This document shows, piece after piece, positions 855 through 5,220 of a stretch of 5,220 nucleotides of DNA. The DNA comes from Chloroflexota bacterium (GTDB taxonomy: Bacteria; Chloroflexota; Dormibacteria; Dormibacterales; Dormibacteraceae). A program made the translations under genes and the position numbers. How positions within the stretch are numbered: position 1 is the stretch's first letter; each line of letters starts with the position of its first letter. The notes beneath the pieces are model-generated. The model was not told the origin of the DNA, made no database searches, and saw only the letters and a program-made list of their open reading frames with translations. Location of the stretch: positions 1 to 5,220 of the forward strand of contig VBJR01000079.1 of the NCBI GenBank assembly GCA_005880175.1. Direction: 5' to 3'.

Positions 855-1232
855 TTGGAAAGCCAAATCCGGCAGACGCTCCGGCAGCGCCTGCGCCGTA
901 TCGAAGGCCAGGTCAAGGGCGTCGAGAGGATGATCGACGAGGGTCGGGACGACACCAGCATCCTGACCCAGCTCAGCGCCATCCAGTCGGCCGCCAGGTC
1001 GGCCGCTGAGCTGATCCTCCTCGAGCGGATGATCGCACGTGTCCAGCAGTCCGTCGGCGCCGCCATCGTGCAGTGCGTCGGCGACTGCCCCGTATGCGGC
1101 CAGGCCGACAACCTGGCCGAAGCGCTGGCCCAGGCCGACTACTCGTCGCTGCTGACGGAGATCGGCCGGCTGCCGCTGCCCCAGATGGTCTCGACGCTAC
1201 AAATCCAAGAACAAGGAGGTGAGAACACATGA
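855..1232 (+). CDS. CsoR/DUF156-family transcriptional repressor, atypical ligands
   Basis: The 125-residue product is an all-helical, DNA-binding regulator of the CsoR/RcnR/CstR family. Family hallmarks are LRRIEGQVKGVERMIDEG (residues 13-30) and QLSAIQSAARSAA (39-51). The TTG start at 855 is chosen because AGGGAGG (842-848) lies 6 nt upstream. Aligned by eye to M. tuberculosis CsoR, the copper ligands Cys36, His61 and Cys65 correspond to Asp33, Arg58 and Arg62. The protein is therefore unlikely to be a classical Cu(I) sensor, and it lacks the CstR cysteine pair. It has Cys74, Cys78 and Cys81 instead (CVGDCPVC), just after helix 2. A CsoR-type operator precedes the gene, and the stop codon overlaps the ATG of the next small gene (ATGA). 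The family is confident; the inducer is unknown. Confidence 0.88.
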   Translation: MESQIRQTLRQRLRRIEGQVKGVERMIDEGRDDTSILTQLSAIQSAARSAAELILLERMIARVQQSVGAAIVQCVGDCPVCGQADNLAEALAQADYSSLLTEIGRLPLPQMVSTLQIQEQGGENT

Positions 1233-1409: not shown

Positions 1410-2687
1410 GTGGCCGAGGCCGTTACCGTCGAGGAGTCCGGCCTGCCGGGAACCAGCCGGGTGCGCTTCCGCCCCCTCACGTTCCGACAGGAGGGGCCGG
1501 AGTACGTGGTCGGGTGCCGGGACATCTCCGTGTACCTCAGCGTGCCCACCGTCGGCGTGGACGTCATCCGGATGCTCGACGGCGGCGCCACCATCGACGA
1601 GGTCGAGCGCAAGTTCGCGAGCCTCCCGCCCGACGAGCGACCCGACGTCAGCGACTTCGTCACCTCGCTGGCCGACGTCGGCCTGGTCGCCGAGCTGGAC
1701 GGCAAGCCCGTCCCGTACGAGGCCCCCGAGCCGGAGGAGGGCACCGGCATCCCGATCCTGCGCGGGATGCGCGGCGAGCACGTGCGCTGGCTGTTCAGCC
1801 GGCCGGCGCTCGTCCTCCACGCCGCGGCGTTCGTGGCGGTGGTGGTGCTGCTGGCGCTCCACCCCAGCTACTTCCCGCTCAGCCGCGACTTCTTCGTGCT
1901 CCCCTGGCTCTCGATCAACACGGTGCTGGTCGCCGTGACGAGCGTCCTCGCCGTCTTCATCCACGAGGTGGCGCACGTCGCGGCCGCCCGCGCGATGGGC
2001 GTGGACGGCCGGGTGAACATCGGCCGCCGGCTGTGGATCCCGGTCGCCCAGACGAACCTGGGCGAGATCTGGGAGCTGTCCCGCGGCGCCCGCATCCTGG
2101 TCTTCCTGGCCGGGATGATCCTCAACACGTGGCTGCTCCTGGCCTGCCTGCTGATCGTCCTGAACACCGGCCCGTCGCCGTGGCAGGCCTGGCTCCGGCT
2201 GGTGATGATCACGATGTTCTACGGGATCGCCTCGCAGTTCGTGTTCATCGTCAAGACGGACCTCCACTACGTCCTGGCGGACGTCTTCTACGCCCGGAAC
2301 CTGATGGAGCAGTCCCGCGAGTACCTCGAGGGCATCGCCGGCAAGATCATCCCCGGCCTGTGCCCCGCGCCCGACCTCAGCCAGCTCCCGGCGGTGGAGC
2401 GGCGGTTCATCCGCGTCTACGCGTGGGCCACGGTGTTCGGCCTCGGCCTCGCCGTCGTGCTGTTCTTCACGTACGCGCTGCCGTTCGCGGTGCGGTCGAT
2501 CGGCACCTCGGTGATCGCGCTGTTCACGTCCCACAGCCTGGACCGGCAGGCGGACTCGGTGCTGACCCTGCTCCTGTTCGGGATCAACCTCGGGATGGTC
2601 GGGTACGTGCTCTGGCGCGACCAGCTGCGCAAGCGGTTCCGCAGGGCGCCCGTTCCCGAGCCCGCGCTGGAGCTGCCCACCGCCTGA
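1410..2687 (+). CDS. PqqD-like domain fused to M50 membrane zinc metalloprotease
   Basis: The 425-residue product starts at GTG 1410, 9 nt after AGGGAGGT; earlier in-frame starts lie inside the terminator hairpin. Residues about 22-96 form a PqqD-like winged-helix domain (LTFRQEGPEYVVGCRD, then IRMLDGG and the F..SLADVGLV end), the kind that binds RiPP leader peptides. Hydrophobic segments near 133-150, 162-190, 229-252, 261-281, 337-357 and 384-401 make it an integral membrane protein. The zinc site is HEVAH at 185-189 within a membrane segment; Asp284 in KTDLHYVLAD, followed by ARNL, is the probable third ligand, as in M50 peptidases of bacteriocin clusters. The catalytic residues appear intact. 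A role in cleaving or exporting the neighbouring 23-residue peptide is inferred from position. No separate promoter was found. Confidence 0.85.
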   Translation: MAEAVTVEESGLPGTSRVRFRPLTFRQEGPEYVVGCRDISVYLSVPTVGVDVIRMLDGGATIDEVERKFASLPPDERPDVSDFVTSLADVGLVAELDGKPVPYEAPEPEEGTGIPILRGMRGEHVRWLFSRPALVLHAAAFVAVVVLLALHPSYFPLSRDFFVLPWLSINTVLVAVTSVLAVFIHEVAHVAAARAMGVDGRVNIGRRLWIPVAQTNLGEIWELSRGARILVFLAGMILNTWLLLACLLIVLNTGPSPWQAWLRLVMITMFYGIASQFVFIVKTDLHYVLADVFYARNLMEQSREYLEGIAGKIIPGLCPAPDLSQLPAVERRFIRVYAWATVFGLGLAVVLFFTYALPFAVRSIGTSVIALFTSHSLDRQADSVLTLLLFGINLGMVGYVLWRDQLRKRFRRAPVPEPALELPTA

Positions 2688-2735
2688 CCGCAGCCACCGG
2701 CCGCGCTGACAGAGCCGCGCCCGGCGGCCGATGCT

Positions 2736-2779
2736 CCGTGCCGCCTCCGACAGCGGACAACTGTCAGGAGGCGGCACGG
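2736..2779 (+). terminator. Strong hairpin terminator after the protease gene
   Basis: CCGTGCCGCCTCC (2736-2748) pairs perfectly with GGAGGCGGCACGG (2767-2779). The stem continues through GACAG (2749-2753) / CTGTC (2761-2765) across a single bulged A, leaving a 7-nt loop. There is no T-run, which is common for actinomycete terminators. It separates the regulator-protease unit from the next promoter. Confidence 0.7.
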
Positions 2780-2848
2780 ACGCACTGTAACGCAGAGCGA
2801 AGATATATGTGCGCCGCTGACATAACGAGGGCACGCGGCGTGACGAAC

Positions 2849-2870
2849 CTACGGAATGTAGTAGTTGGTC
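2849..2870. promoter_or_regulatory. Motif shared with 240-256, possible operator
   Basis: CTACGGAATGTAGTAGT (2849-2865) matches 15 of 17 bases of CTACGGTACGTAGTAGT (240-256), and both sit in AT-richer gene-free DNA. CTAC (2849-2852) and GTAG (2858-2861) form a short inverted repeat. The 7-mer GTAGTAG recurs inverted as CTACTAC (2943-2949), overlapping the -10 of the downstream promoter. A common regulator is possible; none is identified. Confidence 0.35.
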
Positions 2871-2923
2871 GACAACGACGGCCGGACAGTACAGGAAGGA
2901 ACACGAAATAGGCGTCTTGCCCA

Positions 2924-2952
2924 TTGACACCGGTTGCGGCTGCTACTACTCT
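2924..2952 (+). promoter_or_regulatory. Sigma-70-type promoter for the gene at 3037
   Basis: TTGACA (2924-2929) is a perfect -35, followed after exactly 17 bp by TACTCT (2947-2952), a partial -10. Transcription would begin near 2959, giving a leader of about 78 nt. The -35 context (TTGACACC) matches that of the CsoR-unit promoter at 773. Confidence 0.65.
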
Positions 2953-3036
2953 GCACCGTGGGACGACCGAGCCCGCACCACGGGCCTCTCGTGCGTACCG
3001 TTTTGAGGCCTTGGCAGGCGATTGGGAGGAATGCGT

Positions 3037-3480
3037 ATGTCGGTTGATATCAGTCCGGAGCTCACTCCGGAACTGCTCGCGTCGCGGAGGAACGCGCCGC
3101 CGGGGAGCCAGGTCGTGTTCAGCCTCAAGGCGATCTACGGCCTCTCCCCGCGCAGCTACCAGTTTCCCATCAACGAGCGCGAATCGATCGAGTCCGGCCA
3201 GATCTCGATCAGTGCGGACCCCGACGTCGATCCCTCGTTCAACATCGGCGTCATCGACTACGACCGGCTGAAGCTGAAGGTCCGCTACGGCGTCCAGATC
3301 GTCTTCCCGGGTCTGTGGAAGATGGTCACCGAGGGCAACCACGATCCCAGCCTGCTGAACCCGGTCCGGGCGATGGCGACGGACACGTGCACGGTCACCG
3401 AGGACCTGCGCGGGTGGCACGCCCTGGGCCTGCTGCAGTTCCTCCCCGGCTCCATCTGGGCCGGCGCGGAGGGTGGTTGA
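3037..3480 (+). CDS. Unrecognised protein, 147 aa to an in-frame TGA; possible 206-aa recoded protein
   Basis: ATG 3037 is chosen because GGGAGGA (3024-3030) lies 6 nt upstream; the ATG at 3031 is too close to it. The product begins MSVDISPELTPELL and looks soluble, with alternating short beta-like segments (SQVVFSLKAI, SGQISISADP, FNIGVIDYDR, LKVRYGVQIVF) and no signal peptide or membrane helix. It contains one Cys (TDTCT). I recognise no family. Translation halts at TGA 3478-3480 after GAEGG, yet the same frame stays open for 58 more codons with the same G/C-ending codon use, to TAG 3655-3657. The gene may be a complete 147-residue protein, a 206-residue protein in which UGA (codon 148) is read as selenocysteine or by readthrough, or a gene broken by a TGG-to-TGA change. 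It has its own promoter and is followed by a hairpin before the reductase gene. Confidence 0.7.
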   Translation: MSVDISPELTPELLASRRNAPPGSQVVFSLKAIYGLSPRSYQFPINERESIESGQISISADPDVDPSFNIGVIDYDRLKLKVRYGVQIVFPGLWKMVTEGNHDPSLLNPVRAMATDTCTVTEDLRGWHALGLLQFLPGSIWAGAEGG

Positions 3481-3657
3481 GACGGCCGCATTGTCTCCAG
3501 TTTGGGAGACGACCTCTCGGCGCTCCGCGAAGGCGGGATCGTACAGATGCAGTGGGGCAGCCAGTTCCTGGTCAACTGGCCGACGCACCTCGGAGGCGGC
3601 TCGGTGTACGTCGACTTCGAGGGCTCGATGGTTCTGACGCCCCTGCTGTCCCTGTAG
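3478..3657 (+). other. In-frame TGA and 58-codon open continuation of the 3037 gene
   Basis: From TGA 3478-3480 the reading frame of the upstream gene continues without a stop to TAG 3655-3657. The segment begins DGRIVSSLGDDLSALREGG and contains QWGSQFLVNWP and GSVYVDFEGSMVL, again short beta-like strands. Almost 90% of its third positions are G or C, as in the upstream part, so it looks like conserved coding sequence rather than chance. No good ribosome site precedes the internal ATG at 3547. This favours one interrupted or recoded gene over two genes. Confidence 0.6.
3493..3510 (+). promoter_or_regulatory. SECIS-like hairpin directly after the in-frame TGA
   Basis: GTCTCC (3493-3498) pairs perfectly with GGAGAC (3505-3510) around the 6-nt loop AGTTTG. 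The stem begins 12 nt after the TGA and the loop 18 nt after it. As I recall the bacterial SECIS consensus, it asks for a 4-16 bp stem, a 3-14 nt loop with G in its first two bases, and 16-37 nt from UGA to loop; all are met. A lower stem GCCG (3485-3488) / CGGC (3518-3521) is possible. A bulged U like that of E. coli fdhF is not evident. A chance hairpin in GC-rich coding DNA cannot be excluded. Confidence 0.4.
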
Positions 3658-3675
3658 CAGCGTAGGTAACGGCGC

Positions 3676-3715
3676 CGGCGCCGTCCGCAGTGACCGCGTT
3701 ACGCGGACGGTGCCG
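3676..3715 (+). terminator. Hairpin between the UGA gene and the reductase gene
   Basis: The arm 3676-3688 pairs with 3703-3715 in a 13-bp stem with one G-U pair, core GCCGTCCGC/GCGGACGGT, and a 14-nt loop. No T-run follows. It lies just downstream of TAG 3655-3657, not downstream of the TGA, which fits transcription and translation of the extended frame. No new promoter was seen before the reductase gene, so it may act as an attenuator. Confidence 0.6.
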
Positions 3716-3736
3716 CGCGCCCATTTGGAGTCAAGC

Positions 3737-4801
3737 GTGCCACTTCCATTTCTGACGCGACGGGCGCCCTGGTTCTCCATGCTCGTCCACTTCCGGGACA
3801 AGAGCGACATGTACCGGGTGGGGGGCACCGAGTTCCTGCGCCGCTACAGCCTCGACGACGCCGACTACGAGCGGAAGCTCTGCTCGTTCCCACCGGTGGT
3901 GGCTTCCGAGCTGACCTTCGGGATGGACACCGCCATCTGCGGCGAGCTCGTGATGATCATGCGGGAGGCGCCGATGCTGATCGGGCCGAACGCGCGCACC
4001 GACGTGATGGACGCGGTCGACCTCTGCGTCCAGCGCGGCACCCGGGTCATCGGCCTCGGCGGGCTGACATCACCGGCGACCGGTGGTGGAGCGCTCGTGG
4101 CCGAGCGCGTGCCGGCGGGCGTCACGGTCACCAACGGCAACGCGTACACCGCCGCGGTGGTGCGCAGCAACGTGGTTGACGTGGTGGAGGAGCTGGACCT
4201 CGGCCGCCGCCCCGTCGTCGGCGTGGTCGGCTGCACCGGCTCCGTCGGCAGCGCCGCCTCGTGGCTCATCGGGGCCGCCGGCTACGACATGATCCTGGTT
4301 GGCCGCTCGGTGCAGCGGGTCCAGGAGCGGCTGCCGGGCCTGGCCAGCGAGCACCGGTGCGTCGACAGCGTCAGCGCGCTGAGCGACGCCGACGTCGTGG
4401 TCCTGCTCACGAACAACCCCGAGGCGCAGCTCCTGCCGTCGCACGTCCGCTCGGGCGCGGTCGTCCTCGACGTCACCGAGCCGGTCACCATCGAGCGGGA
4501 GGCCATGGCCGAGTTCCAGGCCCACGGCGTCACGGTGCTGAAGGGCGGCCGGGCGCGCATCCCCAACTTCCGGAGCTCCACCGACCTGGGCTCCGACGTC
4601 CCGCCCCCGAACTCGTACGCCTGCTTCGCCGAGACGTACCTGTTCGCCCGCGAGGGCATCCGCGAGCACTCCGTGGGGCTGCCCACGCAGGCGCAGGCCG
4701 AGGAGATGGAGCGGGTGGCCAAGCGCCACGGCGTGCATCCGCGGCCGCTAGAGCTCGAGCGCATCCAGGCCACTCGCGAAGCCGTCGCCGGAGGTGCGTA
4801 G
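3737..4801 (+). CDS. Acyl-ACP reductase (AAR)-like NAD(P)H-dependent dehydrogenase
   Basis: The 354-residue product resembles the cyanobacterial long-chain acyl-ACP reductase, which reduces an acyl thioester to an aldehyde via a Cys-bound acyl intermediate. Matching segments are GLGGLTSP (residues 106-113), VTNGNAYTAAVV (131-142), the Rossmann motif VGCTGSVGSA (164-173, GxxGxxG), VLKGG (267-271) and YACFAETYLF (294-303). Cys296 aligns with the catalytic Cys of the FACFAEAML motif. Length is close to the usual 340 residues, with about 14 extra N-terminal residues from GTG 3737 (GGAG 6 nt upstream); the ATG at 3779 is an alternative without a ribosome site. The product should be cytosolic. The acyl or peptidyl thioester substrate here is unknown. 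The next gene starts 3 bp after its stop, so the two are an operon. Confidence 0.8.
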   Translation: MPLPFLTRRAPWFSMLVHFRDKSDMYRVGGTEFLRRYSLDDADYERKLCSFPPVVASELTFGMDTAICGELVMIMREAPMLIGPNARTDVMDAVDLCVQRGTRVIGLGGLTSPATGGGALVAERVPAGVTVTNGNAYTAAVVRSNVVDVVEELDLGRRPVVGVVGCTGSVGSAASWLIGAAGYDMILVGRSVQRVQERLPGLASEHRCVDSVSALSDADVVVLLTNNPEAQLLPSHVRSGAVVLDVTEPVTIEREAMAEFQAHGVTVLKGGRARIPNFRSSTDLGSDVPPPNSYACFAETYLFAREGIREHSVGLPTQAQAEEMERVAKRHGVHPRPLELERIQATREAVAGGA

Positions 4802-4804
4802 CAG

Positions 4805-5220
4805 GTGAAGATCCGACTCCCCCTTGGACTCTCCATCGCCTCCGGCGTGCCCGTCCTGGTCCTGGTCTCGGTCGGCCCGGTGGCCGCGCTGGCCGGGCCG
4901 GCGTCGATCGTCGTCTGGAGCGCCTCCGCGGTCATCGGCCTGCTGATGGCGTTCGCGTTCGCCGAGCTGACCGGCAGCCTGCCGGGCGTGTCCGGAGGCA
5001 TCGCCGCGCTCAGCGCGGAGGTCCTCGGCCGGCGCAGCCGGCCGCTCGCGCTGATCAGCCAGTGGAGCTACTGGTTCGGCTGGAGCCCCACCCTGGCCAT
5101 CAGCTCGGCCATCGCGGCCGGGTACGTGCAGACGGCGCTGATCCCCCAGAGCCCGCCCTGGGTGGGCTGGCTGCTGGCGTTCGCGGTGCTCGGCCTGAGC
5201 GGCACCGTCAACATCCACGG
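4805..5220 (+). CDS. APC-superfamily amino-acid/amine permease (5' part)
   Basis: The gene starts at GTG 4805, 9 nt after GGAGGT (4790-4795), which lies inside the end of the reductase gene. It runs off the window after 138 codons. The visible part has hydrophobic segments near residues 9-31, 33-53, 82-106 and 119-135, as expected for the first membrane helices of an APC transporter. The AFAFAELTGSLPGVSGGI stretch (49-66) matches the family's TM2/loop region (AELA...P..GG), and NxxG at 136-139 is also typical. The first-helix substrate motif reads SIASGVP. Such proteins import or exchange amino acids or amines across the cytoplasmic membrane. Pairing with the reductase suggests uptake of a substrate or export of a product. 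Substrate is not predictable from this fragment. Confidence 0.83.
   Translation, partial: MKIRLPLGLSIASGVPVLVLVSVGPVAALAGPASIVVWSASAVIGLLMAFAFAELTGSLPGVSGGIAALSAEVLGRRSRPLALISQWSYWFGWSPTLAISSAIAAGYVQTALIPQSPPWVGWLLAFAVLGLSGTVNIH

Follow-up and report, generated by a model that had tools for sequence, protein, structure and literature searches.

Table 1 of PMC13188914 comprises 119 bacterial selenoprotein families or subfamilies with a bacterial SECIS element (bSECIS), for which section 5 of that article gives as criteria a loop of 3-9 nt, a stem of 4-16 bp, a G in the first two loop positions, a spacing of 16-37 nt and a minimum free energy (MFE) of -7.5 kcal/mol or lower. According to a 2025 paper (PMC12013277), cysteine-containing homologues now seem to exist for every known selenoprotein; the paper adds that its method may filter out selenoproteins that lack them. 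The candidate family described here is absent from Table 1 of PMC13188914, as judged by the names and motifs listed there. It shares with bacterial selenoproteins an in-frame UGA, a stem-loop with G-U in its loop located 18 nt downstream and selenocysteine (Sec) genes in the genomes of relatives, yet differs in that no Cys homologue was found for it and in that its model is a beta-barrel rather than a thioredoxin fold.

The gene concerned lies in the window, i.e. the whole stretch of 5,220 nucleotides of Chloroflexota contig VBJR01000079.1 that was analysed. A sequence-only reading of this window had proposed that the gene passes an in-frame TGA as a selenoprotein or by programmed readthrough, and the selenoprotein proposal was supported by a conserved UGA, a coding extension, a conserved RNA motif and the presence of Sec genes in relatives; the probability that the UGA is read as selenocysteine and that the gene encodes a selenoprotein is put at roughly 0.92.

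Table. Features of the window, with positions counted from its first nucleotide
Feature	Position	Strand	Remark
CsoR-like repressor gene	855-1229	+	
M50-like protease gene, weak	1410-2684	+	22.8 bits, under Pfam cut-off
Shine-Dalgarno-like GGGAGG	3024-3029	+	ahead of ATG 3037, read from sequence
Selenoprotein candidate gene	3037-3657	+	206 codons with UGA counted as Sec
UGA as probable selenocysteine, residue 148 after conserved Gly-Gly	3478-3480	+	TGA in 11/11 sequences
58-codon extension	3481-3654	+	purifying selection, alignment and AlphaFold2 model; most of last three barrel strands
SECIS-like stem-loop	3491-3512	+	8-bp stem, loop AGUUUG
TAG, probable real stop of selenoprotein candidate gene	3655-3657	+	
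Strong hairpin, no T tract	3671-3721	+	between TAG and next gene
AAR-like NAD(P)-dependent reductase, partner gene	3737-4801	+	conserved Cys motif
APC-type amino acid permease	4805-5220	+	cut by window end; same cluster in L004, L005, L006, L008

The frame beginning at ATG 3037 was confirmed to remain open past the TGA for 58 codons up to the TAG, and the G/C third-position bias was likewise found to be kept, GC3 being 0.91 upstream of the TGA and 0.88 across the extension, compared with 0.55 over the 58 codons that follow the TAG. The hairpin that had been called terminator-like is indeed present after the TAG and is strong (23 bp, -45.4 kcal/mol, z -4.1), but it lacks a T tract, and a consensus terminator scan of positions 2600-4000 was empty; located between the gene and its partner, it may be a terminator, an attenuator or a processing site.

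Searching 5.8 billion proteins with the 206-residue reading returned 82 matches with lengths of 114-171 residues, and a profile search returned 438 family proteins, the best 120 of which were listed. From both searches 142 proteins were fetched, one being the window's own, and 139 of these end exactly at W-x-G-x-x-G-G, i.e. at the UGA, with three stopping earlier and none extending beyond, from which it follows that annotation cuts the family short at this codon. When residues 146-211 of the L005 protein, its last 66, served as the query, no match was obtained, and none of the proteins in reach of that search thus carries the extension, with Cys or otherwise. The window protein had no Pfam match, profiles A1 and A2 of the candidate family had no sequence match in the PDB, and no paper on this protein family was found in the literature outside subscription journals and preprints.

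Ten relative loci (L001 to L010, each belonging to the genome G00n of the same number) were found by an alignment-based genome scan, in which L006 and L010 are near-copies among the loci. These were assigned to Acidobacteriota (L001), Chloroflexota (L002), Streptacidiphilus (L003), Eremiobacterota (L004), Virgisporangium (L005 and L007), a Micromonosporaceae metagenome-assembled genome (MAG; L006), a Nocardiopsaceae MAG (L008) and Actinomadura (L009 and L010), and so represent Actinomycetota, Acidobacteriota, Chloroflexota and Eremiobacterota, with proteins 49-59% identical to that of the window. A genome scan with the single protein yielded no relatives, a scan of viral contigs likewise none, and A2 searches in six groups (354, 341, 117, 148, 393 and 336 genomes) no new carrier; one extra match from the A2 searches (E 9.5e-4 over 42 positions) was judged spurious.

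All 11 sequences (the window and its ten relatives) carry TGA at this position and never Trp, Arg or another sense codon, an outcome that the sequence-only reading had named as favouring Sec. In each of them, the TGA follows Gly-Gly and is succeeded by GACGG.CG.AT...TCC[AG]GT and then by 58-59 further in-frame codons. Across the extension, mean pS was 0.58 and mean pN 0.27 (pN/pS 0.46), compared with a pS of 0.56 and a pN of 0.31 in the N-terminal part, and pN was below pS in 55 of 55 pairs, which are not independent of one another. Stops in the extension were absent from its own frame in 11/11 sequences, and were present in the +1 frame in 11/11 and in the +2 frame in 6/11. This pattern points to purifying selection on the extension codons, and such selection in turn suggests that they are translated. 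Synonymous substitution is reduced just downstream of the UGA, with a pS of 0.42 over the first 13 codons compared with 0.63 over the remaining ones of the extension.

The main alternative had been a TGG-to-TGA nonsense mutation. An ordinary gene could have been split recently by this or another nonsense change, or by a sequencing error; one base would suffice, and TGA is a common stop in GC-rich genomes. Such an event is excluded, with next to no probability left to it, in view of a TGA at the same codon in 11/11 sequences from four phyla at 49-59% identity, the 139 of 142 fetched proteins that end exactly there, and a downstream frame under purifying selection.

An AlphaFold2 model based on 35 sequences represents the full reading as a single beta-barrel (pLDDT 90.6, pTM 0.81), of which strands 145-154, 169-180 and 189-205 are located at or after the UGA, with residue 148 in a strand after Gly-Gly. 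The 147-residue form, modelled from a different alignment, gave a pLDDT of 87.8 and a pTM of 0.71, and its first strand (25-36) was broken up; in these models, the extension appears to complete the barrel. A reading in which the functional protein is this short form with its Gly-Gly end, and the codons downstream make up a small gene of their own or an overlapping RNA, is very unlikely, even if the Gly-Gly end is nearly invariant and the model of the short form is fairly confident. The only start-like codon common to 11/11 sequences is the ATG at codon 50 of the extension, which is far too late, and the next-best start, at codon 8, is TTG or GTG in 6/11; moreover, in 11/11 the extension stays in frame with the gene upstream of it, and it is the form with the extension that has the higher pTM (0.81 versus 0.71, from different alignments).

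Cys118 is invariant in alignment A2 and was identified by motif in 141 of the 142 fetched proteins, the exception being a fragment that ends before this position; a Cys118-Sec148 pair is possible. OmpW-like porins, PsbO, YceI, avidins and the Diels-Alderases PyrI4, AbyU and PloI4 are also small beta-barrels, with identities of 4-14% among the matches listed, and the best Foldseek match of the model had an E value of 3.9e-4 and a TM score of 0.37. Kinship with known small beta-barrel proteins was rejected, the likeness being one of shape only, as fold searches return common barrel shapes.

The hairpin GTCTCC-AGTTTG-GGAGAC starts 12 nt after the TGA, just as had been reported, and its stem extends to eight pairs, with arms at 3491-3498 and 3505-3512 and a loop (3499-3504) that starts 18 nt after the TGA. 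In all 11 sequences, a stem of 5-8 bp carries a loop of 5-6 nt beginning with [AG]GU at 18 nt from the UGA, and all 11 fall within the bSECIS limits given above, with the MFE of the UGA plus 45 nt ranging from -10.1 to -22.9. Such loose rules prove little, because those for stem, loop and spacing alone are satisfied at 2,973 of the 3,999 TGAs that the ten loci contain. A strict version of the stem-loop, for which the family sequences themselves supplied the definition, was found in 11/11 family genes compared with 4 of the 3,989 remaining TGAs (14 matches in these loci, of which 10 are the family UGAs), in agreement with the SECIS-like element proposed earlier. The seventh codon after the UGA is AGU in 10/11 sequences, whereas elsewhere in these genes and their AAR-like partners AGU represents 19 of 404 Ser codons; in L004, this codon is GGU, by which the residue is changed and the GU of the loop is kept. 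Furthermore, a covariance model built from the other ten sequences recovered the window element at an E value of 1.2e-9, and the same model produced, in 315 kb and besides its own ten members, one match up to E 1, at E 0.78.

Taken alone, the window hairpin is unexceptional (MFE z -1.1; p 0.05 for a stem at 18 nt compared with synonymous recoding), and the case for Sec rests on the relatives and not on this hairpin. Folding energies were ordinary compared with shuffles in most sequences, and synonymous-codon shuffles gave p values of 0.003-0.18 per sequence, combined by Fisher's method over nine of the 11 sequences (L006 and L010 dropped) to 1.2e-4, a value which ignores kinship. Covariation in the stem was weak, with one pair changing on both sides and 98 of 500 shuffles scoring as high (ungapped alignment of 10 sequences). 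When the sequences were loop-aligned by script, one stem pair was U-A in three (the window, L003 and L004) and C-G in the remaining eight, a distribution for which a tree with weak support would imply about three changes. Neither the window nor any of L001-L007 had an Rfam match at gathering score.

The Sec genes on which the sequence-only reading had made its proposal depend were detected in the genomes of the ten relatives, with selD over cut-off in 10/10, selB in 9/10, selA in 8/10 and a credible selC in 9/10. A tRNA-Sec scored over the Rfam cut-off in 10/10 and was assigned the anticodon TCA by ARAGORN in 8/10, that of G001 being identified by Rfam score only. In G004, selA and selB were not found in the bin and the sole tRNA-Sec match over cut-off is a tRNA-Ser according to ARAGORN, and no selA was found in G008. 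Among 14 control genomes, hits over cut-off were obtained for tRNA-Sec in five, selB in two, selA in one and selD in two; an Rfam tRNA-Sec score over cut-off is by itself not specific. The window's own organism presumably also possesses Sec machinery.

In seven of the ten genomes, a sel gene is present on the contig of the UGA gene, 3-23 kb away. This contig encodes selD, selA, selB and selC in G005 (with selA at a distance of 2.9 kb), selA, selB and selC in G006, selC, selD, selA and selB in G007, selB and selC in G008, and selA-D, about 22 kb away, in both G009 and G010. The selD gene of L004 (5482-6408, minus strand), located 3.6 kb from the UGA gene, contains one in-frame TGA at the usual Sec position, in a G-U-x-x-K-L context like that of Sec-containing SelD. 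This context also fits the UxxK entry in the table of PMC13188914. A second selD, without TGA, was observed on another contig of G004.

Programmed readthrough by a near-cognate tRNA (e.g. Trp) without selenium would account for the conserved extension by passage of the UGA alone, and a stop-proximal hairpin could promote it. This is nevertheless improbable given the Sec genes in the relatives' genomes, their presence on the same contig in 7/10, the TCA tRNA-Sec in 8/10, the TGA-containing selD near the UGA gene in L004, and a stem-loop whose G-U in the loop and spacing of 18 nt agree with the bacterial SECIS model set out in section 5 of PMC13188914. Sec, rather than another residue, is probably inserted at the UGA; under this selenoprotein reading, the codon would be decoded by tRNA-Sec(UCA) and SelB, directed by the stem-loop with its AGUUUG loop 18 nt downstream, to give a full product of about 206 residues.

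Two selA/selB sets each were observed in G005, G006, G007, G009 and G010, and the copy on the contig of the UGA gene differs from the other. Among 135 sampled genomes of the family to which G005 belongs, two selA copies over cut-off were present in three, which are exactly the three carriers, and among 135 sampled genomes of G009's family in eight, including G009. As selA is common in these two carrier families (73/135 and 83/135 genomes), its co-occurrence is no argument within them. The linked SelA and SelB had been expected to form a dedicated system of one clade, but the linked copies do not represent one clade; since this is so for SelB by tree, there is no support for one dedicated Sec system.

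No Cys-containing homologue was found among the 82 direct matches, the best 120 of the 438 profile matches or in the extension search (0 matches). Such homologues are usual for a selenoprotein without being obligatory, and their absence is unusual. Three family members gave no NCBIfam match, and thus none to the hypothetical selenoprotein DG (NF049953), a model that was presumably among those scanned. DG, with its GUxG motif in the table of PMC13188914, shares the short G-Sec-x-G motif with the candidate, a likeness that serves as a lead.

A gene like that of acyl-ACP reductase (AAR) is present near the UGA gene in 11/11 loci. In eight of these it is the next gene downstream, in L001 one more gene intervenes, and in L009 and L010 it precedes the UGA gene, from which a small ORF separates it. 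A profile of the 11 partners matched AAR (6jzq) at an E value of 2.9e-28, and likeness to cyanobacterial AAR (TIGR04058; PDB 6jzq) and PigE extends over most of the partner's length, including the Rossmann glycine motif. The partner's C296 is invariant in 11/11 and aligns with the Cys motif of AAR (ACLAETYLF versus ACFAEAMLL), whose aligned Cys is presumably catalytic in AAR. The window partner nonetheless scores far under the curated cut-offs, with 53.9 versus 449.7 bits for TIGR04058 and 73.8 versus 850 for prodigiosin PigE.

Other neighbours vary between loci, and some of their names rest on one member of a cluster. A permease is encoded in the window, L004, L005, L006 and L008, a P450 in L003 and L004, an acyl-CoA dehydrogenase together with a phosphonate-binding-type protein in L003, L004 and L007, a class-V aminotransferase in L003 and G007, and ketoacyl synthases in L009 and L010. 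This mixture, to which an ArsM-like methyltransferase in L005, L006 and L008 belongs, looks like specialised metabolism. The ArsM-like methyltransferase has an extra N-terminal part and is encoded directly upstream (L005 8696-9946, L006 8626-9885, L008 5940-7121); it could act on arsenic or selenium compounds.

In a possible scheme for this locus, offered tentatively, a Sec-dependent step would be linked to the action of an acyl-thioester reductase. Sec148 would be the nucleophile or the redox centre of a barrel protein, either an enzyme or a carrier, which may handle an acyl compound or another small molecule of similar reactivity. Its neighbour, the AAR-like reductase, would take part by reducing a thioester (or selenoester) with the help of the conserved Cys that it has itself. 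In several lineages, the gene pair resides in a region with sel genes of its own. A wider proposition, likewise speculative and with the odds against it, would be a Sec-only family of beta-barrel enzymes in which Sec is irreplaceable (no Cys version), which would depend on joint work with the acyl-thioester reductase, would be encoded in a mobile biosynthetic cluster with a second Sec-decoding gene set of its own, and would as such constitute a selenium-dependent specialised-metabolite pathway.

The candidate thus looks like a new selenium-containing protein family in several bacterial phyla, which databases end at the UGA, and would link selenium to a cluster of the acyl-reductase type. If confirmed, the family would be a counter-example to the Cys-homologue rule and indicate that methods built on that rule can miss families. 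Cultured actinomycete genera that carry it are Virgisporangium, Actinomadura and Streptacidiphilus. Table 1 of PMC5029168 includes Actinomadura atramentaria and other actinomycetes with selD and no known selenium trait, for which unrecognised uses of selenium are a possible reason.

Upstream in the window, the M50-like protease gene showed weak similarity to YydH/LiaK and to daptide proteases. A 23-codon ORF (MKIKVRVLKGAKLTAACADCADA; 1229-1300) was observed directly after the CsoR-like gene and shortly before this protease gene, and could encode a small peptide precursor.
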